This document shows positions 14,835-25,478 of a DNA stretch of 27,381 nucleotides, one piece after another. The notes beneath the pieces are model-generated. The model saw only the letters and a program-made list of their open reading frames with translations. It was not told the DNA's origin and searched no databases. A program made the position numbers and the translations under genes. The stretch spans positions 1 through 27,381 of IMG/VR virus record IMGVR_UViG_3300042914_001547; one strand, given 5' to 3'. Every line of letters begins with the position of its first letter. The stretch's first letter is position 1. This DNA comes from a virus.

Positions 14835-16406
14835 TTATGCCCTATATCTATGACTGCGCACGTCTTGCTCTACATCATCAACTTCGTGCCACTTGCGCAC
14901 GTCGTTTGGTATTTCATACTTACGCTTCACAAACCACTTAGCAACGGCTGGCTCTTTAGAAAGCATATACTTTGCACTATCCATTGCGTGATTTTTTGCA
15001 TCTACTGGTGTATCAACTGCTTCATCGCTTCTATTCTTTTTCCATCTGTAAGTGTTGACTTCATCTATGAACCATGTTAAACGATGGCTTACATAGAAGC
15101 GAGGCGCACCAAACCTATGCGTGAATGGATTAAGCCTGTTGTGTTGCGGTGTTAAATAACCTTTGACTTTAATAATGCCGTTGAGAATGTTATTATTGCC
15201 GCGCATCATACGGATGCCCTGCTTATTAAACATTTCTGCGACACTATCGCCAACTGTTAATTCAGATGCATTTGATTTCTTAAAGATTGCAGGATCAGCA
15301 AGAATTGGACTAATGCCCATTTCTGGATCAAGAAACACTTGCTCAGGATAATACAAGCTACGAAGGCTTTTCATTTCTTCTGATTGTGTACGTATGCCCA
15401 TGCTTCCTTTATAGAAACCATCAAGCAACAACACATTGCCTTGACTATCTACTAAACTAAGCAAGTAGCAGCTAGGCGCAGTCACACCAAAGTCATAGCC
15501 TTCTAGCAAACGCATGCGCGCACCTTGCATACGTTCCGTTGCAATGTGCTTTAGCAATGTGTCATGATTGACTACATGCAAGTTTTCATCAAACTCGTCA
15601 TAGACAATGCCATCAAACGCTACCCACTTACCAAGCAGATACCTGTCACGCATCTTACCACGGTACGTAGCTTCTAGTAGCTTGATATAATCATTTGCAA
15701 GGTTCTGTGCATTCTCATACGTGCTTGCTTCAAATATCTCAATCAAAGGAATAGGACGACCATTTGCATCAAGCACTGGTTCGCCTTCTTCATCTACTTC
15801 ACAAATTAAGTTTGGATTGTTTATGCCTGCACGAAAGTCATGCACTGGCTTAACTAGATTTTTGTATGGCCAGCCAAGCGTAGGATTGCATGACATTACA
15901 ATCATACGAGGGCCTGTGCGTGGCATTGTAGGATCACTGCCGATATATTCAGCATTGCCGCGCAAACGACCAAGCAAGTTTAAGAAATCTTCGTGTGTGA
16001 TCTGCACATCGTCAATCTGATCAACGACAATGAAATCATAGTTAGCAGATAGCAAGTTGCTAGTGCCTTCACCATCTTCGTTCTTGCTTTGATCAATATA
16101 ACGAAAATCAATGATTGTGCCATTTTTTAATACGCATGTATTGTCACGCGACTTGTCGAATGACTTAATCCATGCAGGTGGACACCACTTGATAAACTCC
16201 CGACGCAGCGTAGCATTCAACTTTGGATAAGTTGCACGTGCCATAAGTATTGCTGCGCCAGGATAATCCTTCGCAATCATCAGCGTTTCAGCAACAATGC
16301 CAGTAGTTTTGCCGTTAGCAAAACCACCAGCAAACAGCCGCACCTTCATGCGGCTTTTGTGAAACTTGTCAGCGTGACTGTCGCCAATGATGCGATAGCT
16401 GCGCAT
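14835..16406 (-). CDS. terL: Terminase large subunit (packaging ATPase/nuclease)
   Basis: This 523-aa protein has an N-terminal ATPase with Walker A GGFANGKT (27-34), a Walker B-like FIVVDQ (125-130) and coupling motif MSCNP (171-175). The C-terminal RNase H-like nuclease has acidic motifs GYDFG (Asp305), ILADPA (Asp371) and HAMDSAKY (Asp476). It translocates DNA into the prohead through the portal and cuts the concatemer. Walker B ends in Asp-Gln where most terminases have Asp-Glu. The following IDD could provide the catalytic acid. The start at 16406 has only a weak ribosome-binding site and lies four bases after the holin-like stop, so translation may depend on coupling. Confidence 0.95.
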   Translation of the reverse strand: MRSYRIIGDSHADKFHKSRMKVRLFAGGFANGKTTGIVAETLMIAKDYPGAAILMARATYPKLNATLRREFIKWCPPAWIKSFDKSRDNTCVLKNGTIIDFRYIDQSKNEDGEGTSNLLSANYDFIVVDQIDDVQITHEDFLNLLGRLRGNAEYIGSDPTMPRTGPRMIVMSCNPTLGWPYKNLVKPVHDFRAGINNPNLICEVDEEGEPVLDANGRPIPLIEIFEASTYENAQNLANDYIKLLEATYRGKMRDRYLLGKWVAFDGIVYDEFDENLHVVNHDTLLKHIATERMQGARMRLLEGYDFGVTAPSCYLLSLVDSQGNVLLLDGFYKGSMGIRTQSEEMKSLRSLYYPEQVFLDPEMGISPILADPAIFKKSNASELTVGDSVAEMFNKQGIRMMRGNNNILNGIIKVKGYLTPQHNRLNPFTHRFGAPRFYVSHRLTWFIDEVNTYRWKKNRSDEAVDTPVDAKNHAMDSAKYMLSKEPAVAKWFVKRKYEIPNDVRKWHEVDDVEQDVRSHRYRA

Positions 16407-19814: not shown

Positions 19815-19867
19815 TTGCATACTCCGTTGTTGTGTGTTGTGTGTATTACTGCATTACATATACATAT

Positions 19868-19902
19868 TATATATGATGCGCGCTACGCGCGCTGTATGTA
19901 TA
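19868..19902 (-). repeat. GC-clamped hairpin in the late leader
   Basis: GCGCGC-TAC-GCGCGC (19878-19892) is a perfect 6-bp stem with a 3-base loop. It is extended, after three unpaired positions, by an AT stem (19868-19874 with 19896-19902, one G-T). It lies in the presumed 5' leader of the minus-strand late transcript. There is no T tract, so it is not a typical terminator. Confidence 0.55.
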
Positions 19903-19930
19903 TATAATGCGTAACGCTGTATTATATAGG

Positions 19931-19959
19931 ATGCTAGCCCAAGGGGTGCCGCTTGTCAA
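19931..19959 (-). promoter_or_regulatory. Candidate late promoter
   Basis: TTGACA (19959-19954) and TAGCAT (19936-19931) on the minus strand are separated by 17 bp. The -10 match is only four of six. A perfect TATAAT (19926-19921) lies downstream but at poor spacing. The position fits a promoter for the late block, with a leader of about 110 bases. Confidence 0.5.
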
Positions 19960-19965
19960 TAGGTT

Positions 19966-19993
19966 TTGACGCCTAATCGAAAAGAATTATCGT
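19966..19993 (+). promoter_or_regulatory. Weak candidate plus-strand promoter
   Basis: TTGACG (19966-19971) and TATCGT (19988-19993) are 16 bp apart, back to back with the minus-strand promoter. The nearest plus-strand gene is nearly 600 bases away and has its own promoter, so this may be unused or may make an RNA across the control region. Confidence 0.25.
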
Positions 19994-19998
19994 ATCCT

Positions 19999-20025
19999 CG
20001 GGGCGGATGCATAGCAGACGCCCCG
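19999..20025 (+). repeat. Hairpin CGGGGCG / CGCCCCG
   Basis: A perfect 7-bp GC stem (19999-20005 with 20019-20025) closes a 13-base loop. It is not followed by T residues. It could be an RNA structure just after the weak plus-strand promoter or a DNA-binding site. Confidence 0.45.
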
Positions 20026-20371
20026 CCGCATCCATAGATGCATACCGTTCCCGTCACTTCATTACTAACACATGCAACGCATTGTGATTTATTTTCAGCG
20101 GTGCGAATGTGCATGTGATGGATATTGAGCGGCACACTGCGAAATCATGCCAAGCCCCCCCTTTTGGAATTGCAAGCTAGCCCCCCGTTATGCTAGGGGG
20201 CGGCATTAAATCGCATGCATGCATCAAGGATACGAATAGTGTCTGGCATGATGTTTGCTTGTTATCGCATGCGTTATGTGTGGGGGGCGGCCATGCATTC
20301 ATGTTCAAGCCTTGCACAAGTGATGCAAGCCAGACATGCAAAGCCTAGCTTGCATTGCATTGCGCTTGCTT
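20026..20371. other. Non-coding control region with short repeats
   Basis: I see no convincing gene here. The stretch holds runs of C and G (CCCCCC at 20154 and 20181, GGGGG at 20196, GGGGGG at 20283). Stem GCCCCC/GGGGGC lies at 20180-20201, and GGGGGCGGC recurs at 20196 and 20284. Short repeats such as GCATGC, TGCAT and GCAAGCC are frequent, with ATTGCATTGC-type tandem copies near 20352 and 20408. The layout could suit an origin or a regulatory region. A 71-codon frame at 20215 lacks a ribosome-binding site. Confidence 0.5.
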
Positions 20372-20387
20372 TGTTTCACGTGAAACA
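20372..20387. promoter_or_regulatory. Perfect parS-type site (ParB-binding centromere motif)
   Basis: TGTTTCACGTGAAACA is a perfect 16-bp palindrome identical to the widely conserved bacterial chromosomal parS consensus, the loading site of the CTP-dependent clamp ParB. It lies in the control region, 39 bp before the -35 box of the first early promoter. The sequence identity is direct. Binding by host or phage ParB is inferred, and no ParB gene is in the window. A short T tract at 20397-20403 makes a weak terminator a less likely alternative. Confidence 0.8.
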
Positions 20388-20426
20388 TGCATTTCATTTT
20401 TTTGTATCGCATTGCATTGCAGGCAT

Positions 20427-20455
20427 TTGACTTAGTGTTTTTTATGTGATAGTCT
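20427..20455 (+). promoter_or_regulatory. Early promoter for the coiled-coil gene
   Basis: TTGACT (20427-20432) and TAGTCT (20450-20455) are separated by 17 bp, with a TG two bases before the -10 (extended -10). The start site should fall at the edge of the 17-bp palindrome immediately downstream. Confidence 0.55.
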
Positions 20456-20461
20456 ATTTTT

Positions 20462-20478
20462 GCCTAATCGAATTAGGC
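20462..20478. promoter_or_regulatory. 17-bp palindrome, candidate operator
   Basis: GCCTAAT-CGA-ATTAGGC is a perfect inverted repeat with a 3-base centre at the predicted early start site. Its left half with centre (GCCTAATCGAA) recurs at 19971-19981 beside the divergent late promoter, as expected if one regulator controls both. Confidence 0.6.
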
Positions 20479-20516
20479 TTGTTGTTTGAAATTGCGCATC
20501 AGAAGCATGCGGTAAG

Positions 20517-20531
20517 CTAGCATAATGCTAG
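20517..20531. repeat. Inverted repeat in early leader
   Basis: CTAGCAT-A-ATGCTAG is a perfect 7-bp inverted repeat around one base, in the leader about 48 bases before the start codon at 20579. It may be a second operator-like site; no function is shown. Confidence 0.4.
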
Positions 20532-20578
20532 GCTTGCTTTGTCATGCTTTGCGCTATCATCAGAAGGAAGTATCAAAC

Positions 20579-21790
20579 ATGTCTAATCAATATCTCCCCA
20601 TCTATGCAAAAGCCCATGACAAGGCTAGCGACTATTTGGGCAAGGCTTCAACCTGGCTTTTATTGTCGTCTTATGCTTTGCGCCAATGCATCGCAGGGCA
20701 GGAAGTAACGAAGCATGATGGCAAGCCTTTTCCGTTGCCAGAGGCTTTTGCCAGTGATGACACGAAGGCGCTGCAAGCCTTGCTCATTGCAAAGGCTGGC
20801 GCTGACAGTGCAAGCGAAGCAAAAGCCAAAGCGCGGTTCAAGGGAAACAAGGAAAGGGAAAGGGAAATTACAAAGGAATATCGCAACAAGCGCAATTCCG
20901 CTTTACGTGATATTCTGCCTGCCCTGACCATGGCGCAATTGCGCGTCATATCTGGCAAGGATGCATCGCCGGATTTTAACAAGGGAAGCATCCTTATCCC
21001 TTGCGCTTGGTTCTTGCCAATGAATGCAGCGCCAAGCGAAGCGCAATCCTTGCTGGGGGCTTCAAACCCCATGCAGCGCATGGTTGCAGCAACGACAACA
21101 ACGGAAAAGGAAGAAATCACTTTCTTTACCGTTGAAGGCTTCGCGGATTATGAAAAGGAAGCGAAGCGTTGCAGCGAAGCGCAGGAAGAAAAGCCTTCAC
21201 CTTTTGAATATGTCAGCTTGCTATCCGTTGGCGTCAATGCGGTAGGATTGCAAACCGCGCTTGACCATTACAAAGCCGCAAAAACTGCGCAGGAAAAGTT
21301 ACAGGAAGCAAAAGCAAAAGCCGCGCAAGCCTTGGAAACTGCCAATGCCGCGCAAGCTATCGTGGAAACTGCCAAGGCTTCAAACGCTTCGCCAGAAATG
21401 CTGGCAAAAGCGCAGCAAGCCGCAACGGTGGCAAAAACTGCGCAGGAACAAGCCGCAAGCGAAGCCGCGCAAGCCGCAAGCGAAGCCGACAAGGCTTTGC
21501 CGAAAACTGCGCAGCGCAAGCCGGGCGGTATGGTCAATCAGTCTGGCGCATCAATTCCAATTGCGCCAGAAAACCGCGTTATGACTATTTCCACCGCATG
21601 CGATTTCCTGGCGCATGCTGCTATGGGCGATGACTGCAAGCGCAATTTTGCGCCGAGTGTCATGGAAAACTGGCAGGAATTGGCCAATGCCATCTGGCGC
21701 AATCCAAACCTTGCGCATGCATTCCTTATTGAAAGGAATGCCGTGCAAAAGGAACAAGCGGAAGAACAAGCGCAAAAGAAAAGCGCATAA
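20579..21790 (+). CDS. Ala-rich coiled-coil early protein (403 aa)
   Basis: The start at 20579 (MSNQYLPIYAKAHDKASDYL) follows AGAAGGAAG; an upstream in-frame ATG at 20525 has no site. The N-terminal 230 residues look globular and mixed, with a Lys/Arg/Glu-rich helix (KGNKEREREITKEYRNKRN). Residues about 235-320 form a long Ala/Gln/Lys/Glu helix with near-repeats (AASEAAQ, AASEADK) consistent with a coiled coil. A C-terminal domain rich in hydrophobic helices (FLAHAAMGDDCKRNF...WQELANAIW) follows. A first early gene with its own promoter, operator-like site and strong terminator suggests a product needed promptly and in quantity. I recognise no family. A DNA-binding, host-takeover or scaffold-type role cannot be distinguished. 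Confidence 0.75.
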   Translation: MSNQYLPIYAKAHDKASDYLGKASTWLLLSSYALRQCIAGQEVTKHDGKPFPLPEAFASDDTKALQALLIAKAGADSASEAKAKARFKGNKEREREITKEYRNKRNSALRDILPALTMAQLRVISGKDASPDFNKGSILIPCAWFLPMNAAPSEAQSLLGASNPMQRMVAATTTTEKEEITFFTVEGFADYEKEAKRCSEAQEEKPSPFEYVSLLSVGVNAVGLQTALDHYKAAKTAQEKLQEAKAKAAQALETANAAQAIVETAKASNASPEMLAKAQQAATVAKTAQEQAASEAAQAASEADKALPKTAQRKPGGMVNQSGASIPIAPENRVMTISTACDFLAHAAMGDDCKRNFAPSVMENWQELANAIWRNPNLAHAFLIERNAVQKEQAEEQAQKKSA

Positions 21791-21798
21791 TTGAGAAA

Positions 21799-21831
21799 AG
21801 CCCCAGGGCCAAAAGCCTTGGGGCTTTTTTT
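21799..21831 (+). terminator. Rho-independent terminator
   Basis: AGCCCCAGGGC pairs with GCCTTGGGGCT (one mismatch) around loop CAAAA, followed by a T tract. It sits just after the stop of the coiled-coil gene. Confidence 0.9.
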
Positions 21832-21852
21832 GTGCCAATTTTGCAATGCAAT

Positions 21853-21868
21853 GTGATCACGTGAAACA
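21853..21868 (+). promoter_or_regulatory. Half-conserved parS-like site
   Basis: TCACGTGAAACA in GTGATCACGTGAAACA matches the right 12 of 16 positions of the perfect site at 20372, and the identity runs on through TGCA. The left arm is degenerate. It ends 17 bp before the -35 box of the next promoter. ParB affinity is usually strongly reduced by a lost half-site, so this is a weaker call. Confidence 0.45.
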
Positions 21869-21885: not shown

Positions 21886-21914
21886 TTGACACAAGACTGG
21901 CGTTGTGGTATATT
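21886..21914 (+). promoter_or_regulatory. Sigma70 early promoter
   Basis: TTGACA (21886-21891) and TATATT (21909-21914) lie 17 bp apart, giving a short leader to the ATG at 21950. Confidence 0.8.
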
Positions 21915-22521: not shown

Positions 22522-22566
22522 AAGCCCGGCAGCACGTGCTAACCCCACGGATTGCCGGGCTTTTTT
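22522..22566 (+). terminator. Rho-independent terminator
   Basis: AAGCCCGGCA and TGCCGGGCTT form a 10-bp stem followed by TTTTTT. The 21-base loop contains a self-complementary GCACGTGC. Confidence 0.88.
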
Positions 22567-22627
22567 GCGTCTTGTTCTATGCTTTTCAAGTGCATCACAA
22601 GGCGCAAAGTGGTATCCGCTATGCTGT

Positions 22628-22656
22628 TTGACATAAGATTTGCCGTGTGTTATACT
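22628..22656 (+). promoter_or_regulatory. Sigma70 early promoter
   Basis: TTGACA (22628-22633) and TATACT (22651-22656) lie 17 bp apart. This should drive the long run of coupled small genes from 22720. Confidence 0.85.
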
Positions 22657-22673
22657 CTATTCATCAATCAACA

Positions 22674-22694
22674 TTGCGTATATAAATTACGCAA
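22674..22694. repeat. Inverted repeat in early leader
   Basis: TTGCGTA and TACGCAA are a perfect 7-bp pair around a 7-base centre, just after the presumed start site. This could be an operator or a leader hairpin. Confidence 0.45.
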
Positions 22695-22719
22695 GCACAG
22701 CAGAGAAGGATGCAATGCA

Positions 22720-23049
22720 ATGTGTAACAGTGACGAACCAACACTCGATGATTTCTTTGACGCTTATATGGCGTGGATTGATGATGGTGCGCCAGAAACG
22801 CATAAGCATTTCACGCGCATGTGTGGATTGTGTGGTAATCTTGAGTCTTGGGCAAGATACAAAGATAACTTTGAATATCTTTGTAATGAATTGACTTCTC
22901 GATTTCAGCAATCAGAATTGGATGTAAATTATCCATTCTGTTCTAGTGATGAATATGATGAAATGTGGTCAAATAACACGCAACACACGTTCGAGCCTCG
23001 CTTAAAGTGGGTGCGGGAACAAATTGCAATGCGTAAGGAGCGTGTGTGA
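22720..23049 (+). CDS. GLC-YPF family paralogue 1 (109 aa)
   Basis: Of three nearby ATGs, 22720 is the one in frame, with AGAAGG upstream. The pattern is DDFFDAYMAWIDDGAPE, then FTRMCGLCGNL, then LDVNYPF, and a C-terminus ending PRLKWVREQI. This matches three other genes (23049, 23441, 24984): FY/FF-x2-Y-x2-W, GAP, R-x2-GLC, YPF and a final W-V-R. Small proteins with this signature occur in phages but I know no function. It is probably cytosolic, with no membrane segment. It is the first gene of the third early unit and is coupled to the next (TGATG). Confidence 0.75.
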   Translation: MCNSDEPTLDDFFDAYMAWIDDGAPETHKHFTRMCGLCGNLESWARYKDNFEYLCNELTSRFQQSELDVNYPFCSSDEYDEMWSNNTQHTFEPRLKWVREQIAMRKERV

Positions 23050-23441
23050 TGGGGCAATATGAAGGAATAAAAACCATGCTTAATGTGATGGATCAGTATG
23101 AAGAAATAAAAGCCATGCTTAACGCGCATCTTGCTGACTTTTACAAAGCATATGTTGCATGGCTTGACGCCGGCGCGATTGTGATGACCTATCAACCGGG
23201 CAACAAGGCATTCACACGTGAATATGGCTTGTGTGCTAACCTTTCAATCTGGACAGAAAACAAAAACTTTTCTGAGCAGTTGTGTGCTGCTTTAGACACT
23301 GCATTAGAGATGCAGTTTATTCTGGATGGATTAGACAAACTCTATCCATTTGGTGACAAGCAGCTTTATGTAAGGGAATGTGAAAAAAGAACACAACACT
23401 TAAATCCAAAGCGTGTTGCTTGGGTAAGGGGGAAAGTGTAA
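23049..23441 (+). CDS. GLC-YPF family paralogue 2, with tandemly duplicated N-terminus (130 aa)
   Basis: The start at 23049 overlaps the preceding stop (TGATG) with AAGGAG upstream. It carries LADFYKAYVAWLDAGA, FTREYGLCANL, GLDKLYPFG, YVRECEKR and HLNPKRVAWVRGKV, the full family pattern. The first 25 residues are a 13-residue unit repeated: QYEGIKTMLN then QYEEIKAMLN. The DNA shows a 39-nt tandem duplication (from 23055 and 23094; 26 of 29 bases identical). The family core would begin near MLNAHLADFY, so the extra repeat may be recent and could alter the start or add a helix. Function unknown. Confidence 0.75.
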   Translation: MGQYEGIKTMLNVMDQYEEIKAMLNAHLADFYKAYVAWLDAGAIVMTYQPGNKAFTREYGLCANLSIWTENKNFSEQLCAALDTALEMQFILDGLDKLYPFGDKQLYVRECEKRTQHLNPKRVAWVRGKV

Positions 23442-23761
23442 TGTCACCACAGTTGTATGGATTTTATTTGGGCTATCTCGCCTGGATAAACGATGGTGCG
23501 CCAGAGCATGATGTTTTCACACGACACAATGGATTGTGTGACAACTATCGTGATTACTTTCGCAGTTTGTATCGTGATCGTGATGCGTCTGGTGATTTAT
23601 CAGAAATGGTGCAATCATTCAGGAATGCAGGACTCAATCGCTTGTATCCCTTCAATTTTGGATCACCATACGCATTCAGTGAAGAATGTAATAAGGGATA
23701 TGCGCATCTAAATCCACAACGCATTGCGTGGGTAAGGAAGAAAGTAGCAGATGGCAGCTAA
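23441..23761 (+). CDS. GLC-YPF family paralogue 3 (106 aa)
   Basis: The start at 23441 shares a base with the preceding stop (TAATG), behind a GGGGGAAAG site. The pattern is YGFYLGYLAWINDGAPE, FTRHNGLCDNY, GLNRLYPF, YAFSEECNKGY and HLNPQRIAWVRKKV. It is closest in its C-terminus to paralogue 2 (HLNPxRxAWVRxKV), so these two neighbours likely arose by tandem duplication. No catalytic site or membrane segment is visible. It overlaps the next gene by 11 bases. Confidence 0.75.
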   Translation: MSPQLYGFYLGYLAWINDGAPEHDVFTRHNGLCDNYRDYFRSLYRDRDASGDLSEMVQSFRNAGLNRLYPFNFGSPYAFSEECNKGYAHLNPQRIAWVRKKVADGS

Positions 23762-23969
23762 CAACAAACGCGGCTATGTAGCGAAGGGCTATCGCTACAA
23801 AAAGGCAGATAGCTTTGTCAAGACTGTCATACTGCTAGACCCTGAGACATTCGCTCAAGTGCAAGAACGCGCGCTCAAAGCTAACACTAGCTTTGCAGCG
23901 CAAGTGCGTGAGTTACTTGAGATTGGCTTGGAAACAGTCAGCATTGATGAAAGGAATGTGAAATGGTAA
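23751..23969 (+). CDS. Ribbon-helix-helix DNA-binding protein
   Basis: This 72-aa protein has a basic N-terminal arm (NNKRGYVAKGYRYKKADSF), a strand KTVILLD (24-30) and helix A PETFAQVQERALKA. Helix B follows as SFAAQVRELLEIGLE, the standard Arc/CopG/MetJ ribbon-helix-helix layout. Such dimers insert a beta-ribbon in the DNA major groove and usually repress promoters. It overlaps the preceding gene by 11 bases and the next by 7. Candidate targets are the palindromes at 20462 and 4639, but that link is inference. Confidence 0.75.
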   Translation: MAANNKRGYVAKGYRYKKADSFVKTVILLDPETFAQVQERALKANTSFAAQVRELLEIGLETVSIDERNVKW

Positions 23970-24364
23970 CGGATCAAAAGCTGATATACATGGTGTTCGC
24001 AATAGAAGAATACTACCCTAGTGGTGGTATGAGTGATTGCGTTGGTGTGCGTCACACAATGGAAGAAGCAGTGCAATGTGCTGATACTATTCGCAGCCAT
24101 GGCAGTGTGGAAATATGGTCAATGAATATGCAAACACTTGAATACCAATGTGAAGAATATGAAAGACCCCCACGACCTGCACCAACACCCGAACTTCTGG
24201 AAGTATCAGCAAAAATGAAGCAACGCTTGGTGGATAATGTTGCAAAATCTAATCCACTTGTTGCACATTCACTTCGCTTTGCTACAACAAGTAAGCAGTA
24301 CGGAAAACTGAATGCAACAGCAGCATTCATTAGCAGTGGAATAAAGCCAGATGCAAAAGAGTAA
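23963..24364 (+). CDS. Unknown early protein (133 aa)
   Basis: The start at 23963 follows AAGGA and overlaps the preceding stop. An N-terminal compact domain (IYMVFAIEEYYPSGGMSDCVGVRHTMEEAVQCADTI) with a strand-helix alternation is followed by a Pro-rich linker (ERPPRPAPTPELLE). A helical, Lys/Ala/Asn-rich end follows. The family is not recognised. The first domain has the length of a small phage nucleotide- or protein-binding fold, but I will not assign it. It overlaps the next gene by 14 bases. Confidence 0.6.
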   Translation: MVTDQKLIYMVFAIEEYYPSGGMSDCVGVRHTMEEAVQCADTIRSHGSVEIWSMNMQTLEYQCEEYERPPRPAPTPELLEVSAKMKQRLVDNVAKSNPLVAHSLRFATTSKQYGKLNATAAFISSGIKPDAKE

Positions 24365-24590
24365 TAACAAATGGATCGAAGGCCCAAAGAAATGGGCTAT
24401 TCGATCAGTAAATGGTGGACCATTTACTGAGTATCCCACACGCACCATGGCACGAGCAGCAGCAAAGCATCGAAGTCGCTTCGATGATTGCGCATATGAA
24501 GTTTTGCGTCGAGACAAAATGCCAAATGGTATCTGGCATTGTGTGGAAACGCATGACTTTCACAAACACCTTCGCAACGCAATGAAATGA
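24351..24590 (+). CDS. Unknown small basic protein (79 aa)
   Basis: The start at 24351 overlaps the preceding gene by 14 bases and has only a weak site. The protein is basic and aromatic (KWIEGPKKWAIRSVNGGPFTEYPTRTMARAAAKHRSRF) with HCVETHDFHKHLRNAMK at the end. The early part resembles small nucleic-acid-binding or phage early proteins only in charge. There is no known domain. Confidence 0.55.
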   Translation: MQKSNNKWIEGPKKWAIRSVNGGPFTEYPTRTMARAAAKHRSRFDDCAYEVLRRDKMPNGIWHCVETHDFHKHLRNAMK

Positions 24591-24603
24591 GGAGAACAAT
24601 CCA

Positions 24604-24969
24604 ATGTATGCACAAACACAGCATGCGCCAATCATAGGCGTAAGCATCAATAACTTTCGCAGCACATACATCAAAGGCCCTGTTACGGTGCTGCGTAAGG
24701 ATTATGCCAACCGCCGCATAGCACTGGCGCTTGTCACACCAAAGTCAGCACGTGCAATGATGCCAGATGTGCTGGCTGTTGCTACTGTCAATGTTCCTGC
24801 ATACAATCCTGTCGGCACATACGATGTGCTGATTAAGAATTGGAGTGAGAACGAAGGCATCGCTGATGAATTGGTGAAGCATGGCATCATCAAACCAGCG
24901 CACAAGACATTTCGCACAGGTAGCTTTGATGCTAAAGTTACCGTGCATGAATTGCTGCAACTGCGATAG
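24604..24969 (+). CDS. Unknown early protein (121 aa)
   Basis: The start follows AGGAG nine bases upstream. The protein alternates strands and helices (APIIGVSINNF, GPVTVLRKDY, RRIALALVT, PDVLAVATVNVPAYNPVGTYDVLIKNWSENEG) and ends with a basic segment and KVTVHELLQL. This order suits a compact alpha/beta fold. No motif recognised. It lies between two members of the operon and is followed at 15 bases by paralogue 4. Confidence 0.6.
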   Translation: MYAQTQHAPIIGVSINNFRSTYIKGPVTVLRKDYANRRIALALVTPKSARAMMPDVLAVATVNVPAYNPVGTYDVLIKNWSENEGIADELVKHGIIKPAHKTFRTGSFDAKVTVHELLQLR

Positions 24970-24983
24970 AAGGAAACACCGCA

Positions 24984-25478
24984 ATGGAATTGAAACTCAT
25001 TGACTTCTACAAGTCATACTTCGATTGGCTTAGTGGGGGTGCGCCTGACAAGTGGCACAATTCACGTGACATTGGATTGTGCACTGCCATTGATGCATTC
25101 GTGTATAAGCTGTCATTCCTTGGAAAAAACTGGTTCGACAAGGATGACAGAAAAGCAGTGCTTTTACTGCGAGAGAAAGATGAAAAGGTGCTTGATGCAT
25201 ACAATCGGTTTCCTGGTAGAGCTGTGCGCATGTGCACAGAAATGCGCGAGCAGTTTGAAGATGCAGGACTTGATCCTGTTTATCCATTCGGCGGTGCTGT
25301 GCGTTATGATACTGAGGCAAAGCGCAAACAAATGCATGAGAATAAGATGCGCATTCGCTGGATAAATGCGAGACTGAACAACGAGAAGTTGGGAACCTTC
25401 ATTGAGTTGCATTGCCGTGACTTGACGAAGGAAGGTTACTATATCTCAACACTCGATGATGCACCAGGAGAAATGTGA
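24984..25478 (+). CDS. GLC-YPF family paralogue 4, longer variant (164 aa)
   Basis: The start at 24984 follows AAGGAAA. It shows the family pattern: IDFYKSYFDWLSGGAPD, SRDIGLCTAI, GLDPVYPFG, YDTEAKRKQMHENKMRIRWINARL. Relative to the other three it has an insertion of about 35 residues in the middle (NWFDKDDRKAVLLLREKDEK region). It also has a C-terminal tail of about 30 residues. It is separated from the other copies by four genes, so it is the most diverged. Its stop overlaps the next start (TGATG). Confidence 0.7.
   Translation: MELKLIDFYKSYFDWLSGGAPDKWHNSRDIGLCTAIDAFVYKLSFLGKNWFDKDDRKAVLLLREKDEKVLDAYNRFPGRAVRMCTEMREQFEDAGLDPVYPFGGAVRYDTEAKRKQMHENKMRIRWINARLNNEKLGTFIELHCRDLTKEGYYISTLDDAPGEM

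Follow-up and report, generated by a model that had tools for sequence, protein, structure and literature searches.

The window (the whole 27,381-nucleotide stretch that was analysed) is a 27-kb linear IMG/VR record representing an incomplete contig. Hits to PHROG families were obtained for its large terminase (TerL), portal and major head protein, and the gene content predicts a short-tailed phage. The nearest isolates are only 20–30% identical, and a TerL search placed the phage in a large environmental, uncultured group, comprising a set of relatives at 68–69%, another at 60% and many at 45–50%. Two long relatives, G007 (42 kb) and G024 (45 kb), show the same layout as the window. The replication and recombination set of G024 comprises a primase-like protein, a RecD/Dda-like helicase, a Sak4-like protein and a PolA-type polymerase that bears a uracil-DNA-glycosylase domain; a deoxynucleoside kinase is encoded as well. 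The start of the G024 contig (L153, 1–240) is a long GAGGT repeat, and control-region sequence is duplicated at both of its ends, probably an assembly artefact. In the window, a parS site lies within the intergenic gap that separates the leftward structural block from the rightward early block (Table 1).

Table 1. Features of the control region and neighbouring genes in the window.
Feature	Position	Strand	Remark
parS, TGTTTCACGTGAAACA	20372..20387		exact 16-mer; exact also in G005 and G006
Decayed parS, GTGATCACGTGAAACA	21853..21868	+	same intergenic gap as the perfect parS of G005/G006
Early sigma70-type promoter, TTGACT-17 nt-TAGTCT	20427..20455	+	starts 39 bp downstream of parS
Second early promoter, TTGACA-17-TATATT	21886..21914	+	downstream of decayed parS
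e1, first early gene, 403 aa	20579..21790	+	no known family; 57–63% identical in G005/G006/G024
Intergenic control region, 758 bp	19821..20578		between divergent structural (-) and early (+) blocks
GC-rich stem and T-tract, likely intrinsic terminator	21790..21840	+	by eye; aligned in relatives
Large terminase (TerL)	14835..16406	-	defines the phage group

The 16-mer is a complete palindrome that matches chromosomal-type parS at 16 of 16 positions on both strands, confirming an earlier note on this DNA, and no other perfect copy exists in record IMGVR_UViG_3300042914_001547. The match is scored against the bacterial consensus, from which the parS specificity of the host may differ; exactly the same sequence is listed as parS of the alphaproteobacterium Hyphomonas neptunium (PMC7022226). 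The chance estimate of the earlier note, about 6 per million, was reproduced with uniform base frequencies (6e-6 copies expected in the window) and becomes 2.2e-5 under a first-order Markov model of the window. The second, decayed site retains 12 contiguous parS bases (12/16) and is the second-best parS-matching run across the entire window.

The early promoter that had been reported 39 bp from parS is present with the boxes and spacer given in Table 1, and a TTTGAC(A/T)TAG block at this promoter is aligned in all four phages compared. Neither this promoter nor the putative terminator, which sits between e1 and the second parS and promoter, was listed by a generic consensus scan. The CATTGCAATG motifs seen near the promoters show no over-representation (4 observed vs 4.0 expected), and the AlphaFold prediction of e1 was uninformative (mean pLDDT 48). 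Several further elements were observed in the early region. A GCCTAATCGAATTAGGC palindrome at 20462–20478, located at the likely e1 transcript start, is a possible operator or leader hairpin. The e1 leaders of G005, G006 and G024 carry a boxA-like TGTTCTTTAA(C/A)AAG element (L148, 5427, minus strand; L149, 9020, plus strand; L155, 4319, minus strand) that suggests Nus-type antitermination, and a degenerate version occurs in the window. The four early proteins e4, e5, e6 and e11 (22552–25478) all hit the same regions in relatives and form an apparent duplicated family, and a 72-aa early protein encoded at 23751–23969 appears ribbon-helix-helix-like by eye, with no family match.

The absence of a visible ParB gene, also remarked upon earlier, holds and extends to ten relatives. 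None of 11 records (the window and these ten) yielded ParB_N (PF02195), ParA AAA_31 (PF13614) or tyrosine integrase; among them, the parS-bearing contigs are incomplete and the relatives include the 42-kb and 45-kb contigs. HTH_ParB (PF17762) was likewise not detected in seven records of the group. The group is probably virulent: it has replication genes of its own, and neither Par genes nor tyrosine integrase, the one marker of a temperate lifestyle that the search covered, turned up. For the same reasons, the phage-plasmid status that the earlier note had coupled to recruitment of host ParB is unsupported; the recruitment itself persists as the best reading (see below).

Conservation of the site was analyzed in relatives. 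A single-sequence e1 search of IMG/VR gave no matches, and with an alignment query the only e1 carriers among viral contigs besides the window were G005, G006 and G024. Exact TGTTTCACGTGAAACA is found in two of these three, G005 and G006, in a search that covered 24 TerL records, and is shared with them despite e1 being only ~62% identical. In G005 and G006 it lies downstream of e1, 47 bp upstream of the -35 box of the next early promoter, whereas in the window it lies on the opposite side, upstream of e1, so that its position differs by 1.5 kb and by early promoter. In the gap that holds the perfect site of G005/G006, the window has the decayed GTGATCACGTGAAACA. The lineages therefore display either a perfect site at position 2 (G005/G006) or a perfect site at position 1 together with a decayed position 2 (window). 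G024, whose contig ends look misassembled, has e1 and both promoters, yet no parS within two mismatches. Another 50 TerL-related records, a good part of which are fragments, gave no parS match closer than two mismatches; two-mismatch parS-like sites occur in G075, G076 and G089. Within this phage, carriers comprise only three contigs, the window included, in two independent lineages. Two other candidates were rejected: three-mismatch look-alikes in G005/G006 fall inside the portal gene, and a TGTTTCA half-site that precedes e1 in G006 was weighed as another relic, but the alignment lends its homology no support. The conservation that the earlier note had proposed to look for in the same intergenic region accordingly applies to the sequence in G005 and G006 and not to its place, on the other side of e1, nor to G024 and distant TerL relatives, where the site is absent. 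Judging from these genomes, parS is a subclade feature that was gained or lost, its sequence being kept exact as the surroundings changed. A site that moved while one perfect copy was kept fits selection for having parS more than a fixed operator.

Base composition provides hints of the host. GANTC, the site methylated by CcrM of Alphaproteobacteria, is 9-fold depleted in the window (6 observed vs 54 expected) and missing from two relatives (0 vs 34 and 0 vs 42 expected). No other palindrome of its class is as strongly depleted in the window, G024 or G007; for Caulobacter phage Kuura, 31 were observed vs 98 expected. An alphaproteobacterial host is plausible on this signal, which a GANTC restriction system would yield equally, and the depletion points weakly away from a spore-forming host. 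A terminase search of genome contigs returned two remote matches, both in metagenome bins, and no host.

We also searched other phages for the 16-mer, which is present in 286 of 50,697 phage records (824 strand hits, equal to 412 sites), compared with none for both its mirror and a permuted palindrome of the same composition. These 286 records are redundant, including 87 of Listeria phages alone, and therefore do not represent 286 independent events. In IMG/VR, at least 120 stretches contain the 16-mer vs one for the mirror palindrome. ParB_N is missing from 15 of 16 isolates with the 16-mer that were picked for diversity, the exception being Microbacterium phage Quhwah, and from 35 of 39 larger IMG/VR contigs, many of which are fragments and any of which can include host flanks. 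Non-coding gaps, comprising 9% of bases, hold 45 of 104 sites (43%) in 80 IMG/VR loci; parS is likewise intergenic in most isolates examined, and some isolates carry it at several positions per genome. TTGAC was found 25–55 bp from the 16-mer in 10 of the 120 stretches of the first scan (about 8%), about as frequent as the ~6% that a hand estimate covering both strands gives for chance; carriers of the 16-mer thus do not generally pair it with a -35 box.

The carriers are phages of unrelated hosts and genome types. The 5.9-kb inovirus genome of bajarodino virus 6 (PQ006149, L258) contains six exact parS, nearly all between annotated genes, and exact sites occur in microviruses of 4–6 kb, including several gokushovirus records. 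In Spiroplasma phage 4 (SpV4, L261), parS at 693–708 directly precedes an apparent ribosome-binding site. The T5-like Vibrio phage phi 3 (L260) has an exact site at 801–816 in the terminal repeat, where it is flanked by the A1 and A2 genes; a T5-like phage is expected to inject this part first. Orphan parS sites are hence recurrent in phages. A survey of them was not found in the openly licensed literature; one may exist. The earlier impression that such a site is unusual in a short-tailed phage was only partly right, given this recurrence and the phi29 precedent as described in PMC9437464.

Host ParB, a CTP-driven DNA clamp present in most bacteria, very likely binds the parS of the window, judging from the identical sequence. 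Since the site is parS and the phage group is without detected ParB, the best reading is that a captured chromosomal parS lets the phage recruit host ParB for partitioning or positioning its genome, a reading to which we assign a probability of about 0.5. After injection, CTP-bound host ParB would load at the captured site and slide onto flanking phage DNA, yielding a partition complex that host ParA, nucleoid, polar or SMC partners could position or partition. With a slow or deferred lytic cycle, both daughter cells might thereby retain the phage; alternatively, the phage might replicate at a favourable cell location. The turnover of position, together with the lack of a general promoter linkage, favours a centromere-like role over an operator. 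That the benefit lies in partition or positioning rather than in regulation or titration is the most speculative part. Against partition, G024, which has e1, and more distant relatives are without parS, and perfect sites 39–47 bp upstream of a -35 box also suit regulation. Moreover, the value of partition to a group that looks virulent is not obvious.

The same spacing keeps alive the promoter control that the earlier note had listed, even if the mobility of the site argues against an operator. Host ParB at parS may repress or tune the adjacent early promoter, so that expression is tied to ParB level or cell cycle, much as ParB represses promoters beside the intergenic parS3 and parS4 in Pseudomonas aeruginosa (PMC5521831). 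The perfect sites of the window and of G005/G006 are both suitably placed for such a switch. However, they adjoin different promoters in different lineages, the second promoter of the window having a relic only, and TTGAC follows the 16-mer at near chance frequency across IMG/VR, with parS at several places per genome in some isolates. We therefore regard a transcriptional switch as unlikely, if a serious contender. A further rival is a decoy, in which replicating phage parS copies would titrate host ParB and disturb host segregation or SMC loading. Hosts have one to about 20 parS (PMC10197239), which an assumed ~100 phage genomes per burst would outnumber, and SGI1 destabilises its helper partly by titration (PMC10954446). 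Titration is less likely because there is one perfect copy per genome, which would titrate little early in infection where several copies are expected of a decoy, and because host segregation would soon be irrelevant given lysis; we consider it improbable. More doubtful still is that the palindrome serves as operator for some regulator other than ParB, of phage or host, with the same recognition sequence. Operators are normally found where this palindrome lies, ahead of an early promoter, and the regulator could be phage-encoded, such as the small RHH-like protein at 23751–23969. However, no homologue of this protein was detected in the one parS-bearing relative whose contig spans the early region, and all 16 bases equal parS, also in phages that differ in host and genome type. 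A functionless site that arose by chance or through history, consistent as it is with the missing parS of G024 and more distant relatives, is largely refuted by an expectation of about 2e-5 copies per window and by the exact 16-mer recurring elsewhere in the genomes of sister phages, plus the relic.

Recruitment of host ParB can be extended to a tentative general reading, which we find plausible though somewhat less likely than not: in such ‘centromere borrowing’, a general strategy of virulent phages, unrelated phages would independently have acquired exact host parS without ParB. It might include podoviruses, large myoviruses, T5-like and phi29-like phages, and microviruses and inoviruses of 4–6 kb, and host ParB, ParA or SMC might position, partition or protect their genomes. 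The window's group would then display the gain, move and loss of parS. If virulent phages load host ParB, segregation proteins become an infection host factor, comparable to the co-option of Xer/dif or LexA, and phage DNA placement in the cell becomes testable by a single 16-bp mutation. The enrichment of the 16-mer over control palindromes suggests that the effect reaches far beyond the window phage, and this wider enrichment, in phages that lack ParB, is of greater interest than the window site itself.

The window site is real and functional-looking, and is best filed as a variant of host-ParB exploitation already known from precedents. Bacillus phage phi29 uses the host ParB homologue Spo0J while its lytic cycle is deferred (Meijer et al. 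2005, as cited in PMC9437464). The likeness, as far as that account goes, is a virulent, short-tailed phage exploiting host ParB, as is predicted here from sequence, and the feature shared within the available sequence is a parS-bearing genome without detected ParB. In the same account, phi29 differs in its ~19-kb, protein-primed genome, spore-forming host and Spo0A control; the window group has ~43 kb, PolA-type replication genes and hints of a non-sporulating alphaproteobacterial host. SGI1 carries parS mimics bound by IncC ParB and thereby gains stability (PMC10954446). It is likewise a mobile element with parS copies for another replicon's ParB, but a genomic island paired with a plasmid for which binding and stability were demonstrated, whereas the predicted pairing here is of phage and chromosome. 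The bacterial chromosomal parS (Livny et al. 2007, as cited in PMC10197239) has the identical 16-bp sequence; the window site differs in being a single perfect copy in a phage genome and not beside the host ori. Extrachromosomal mycobacterial prophages exemplify ParABS of phages and phage-plasmids (PMC7157519); such cassettes also place a partition site on a phage genome, yet they encode the partition proteins, none of which was found in the window group. The parS3/parS4 type of P. aeruginosa, finally, has parS beside a promoter whose activity depends on ParB; the spacing of 39–47 bp in the window group would suit such control.
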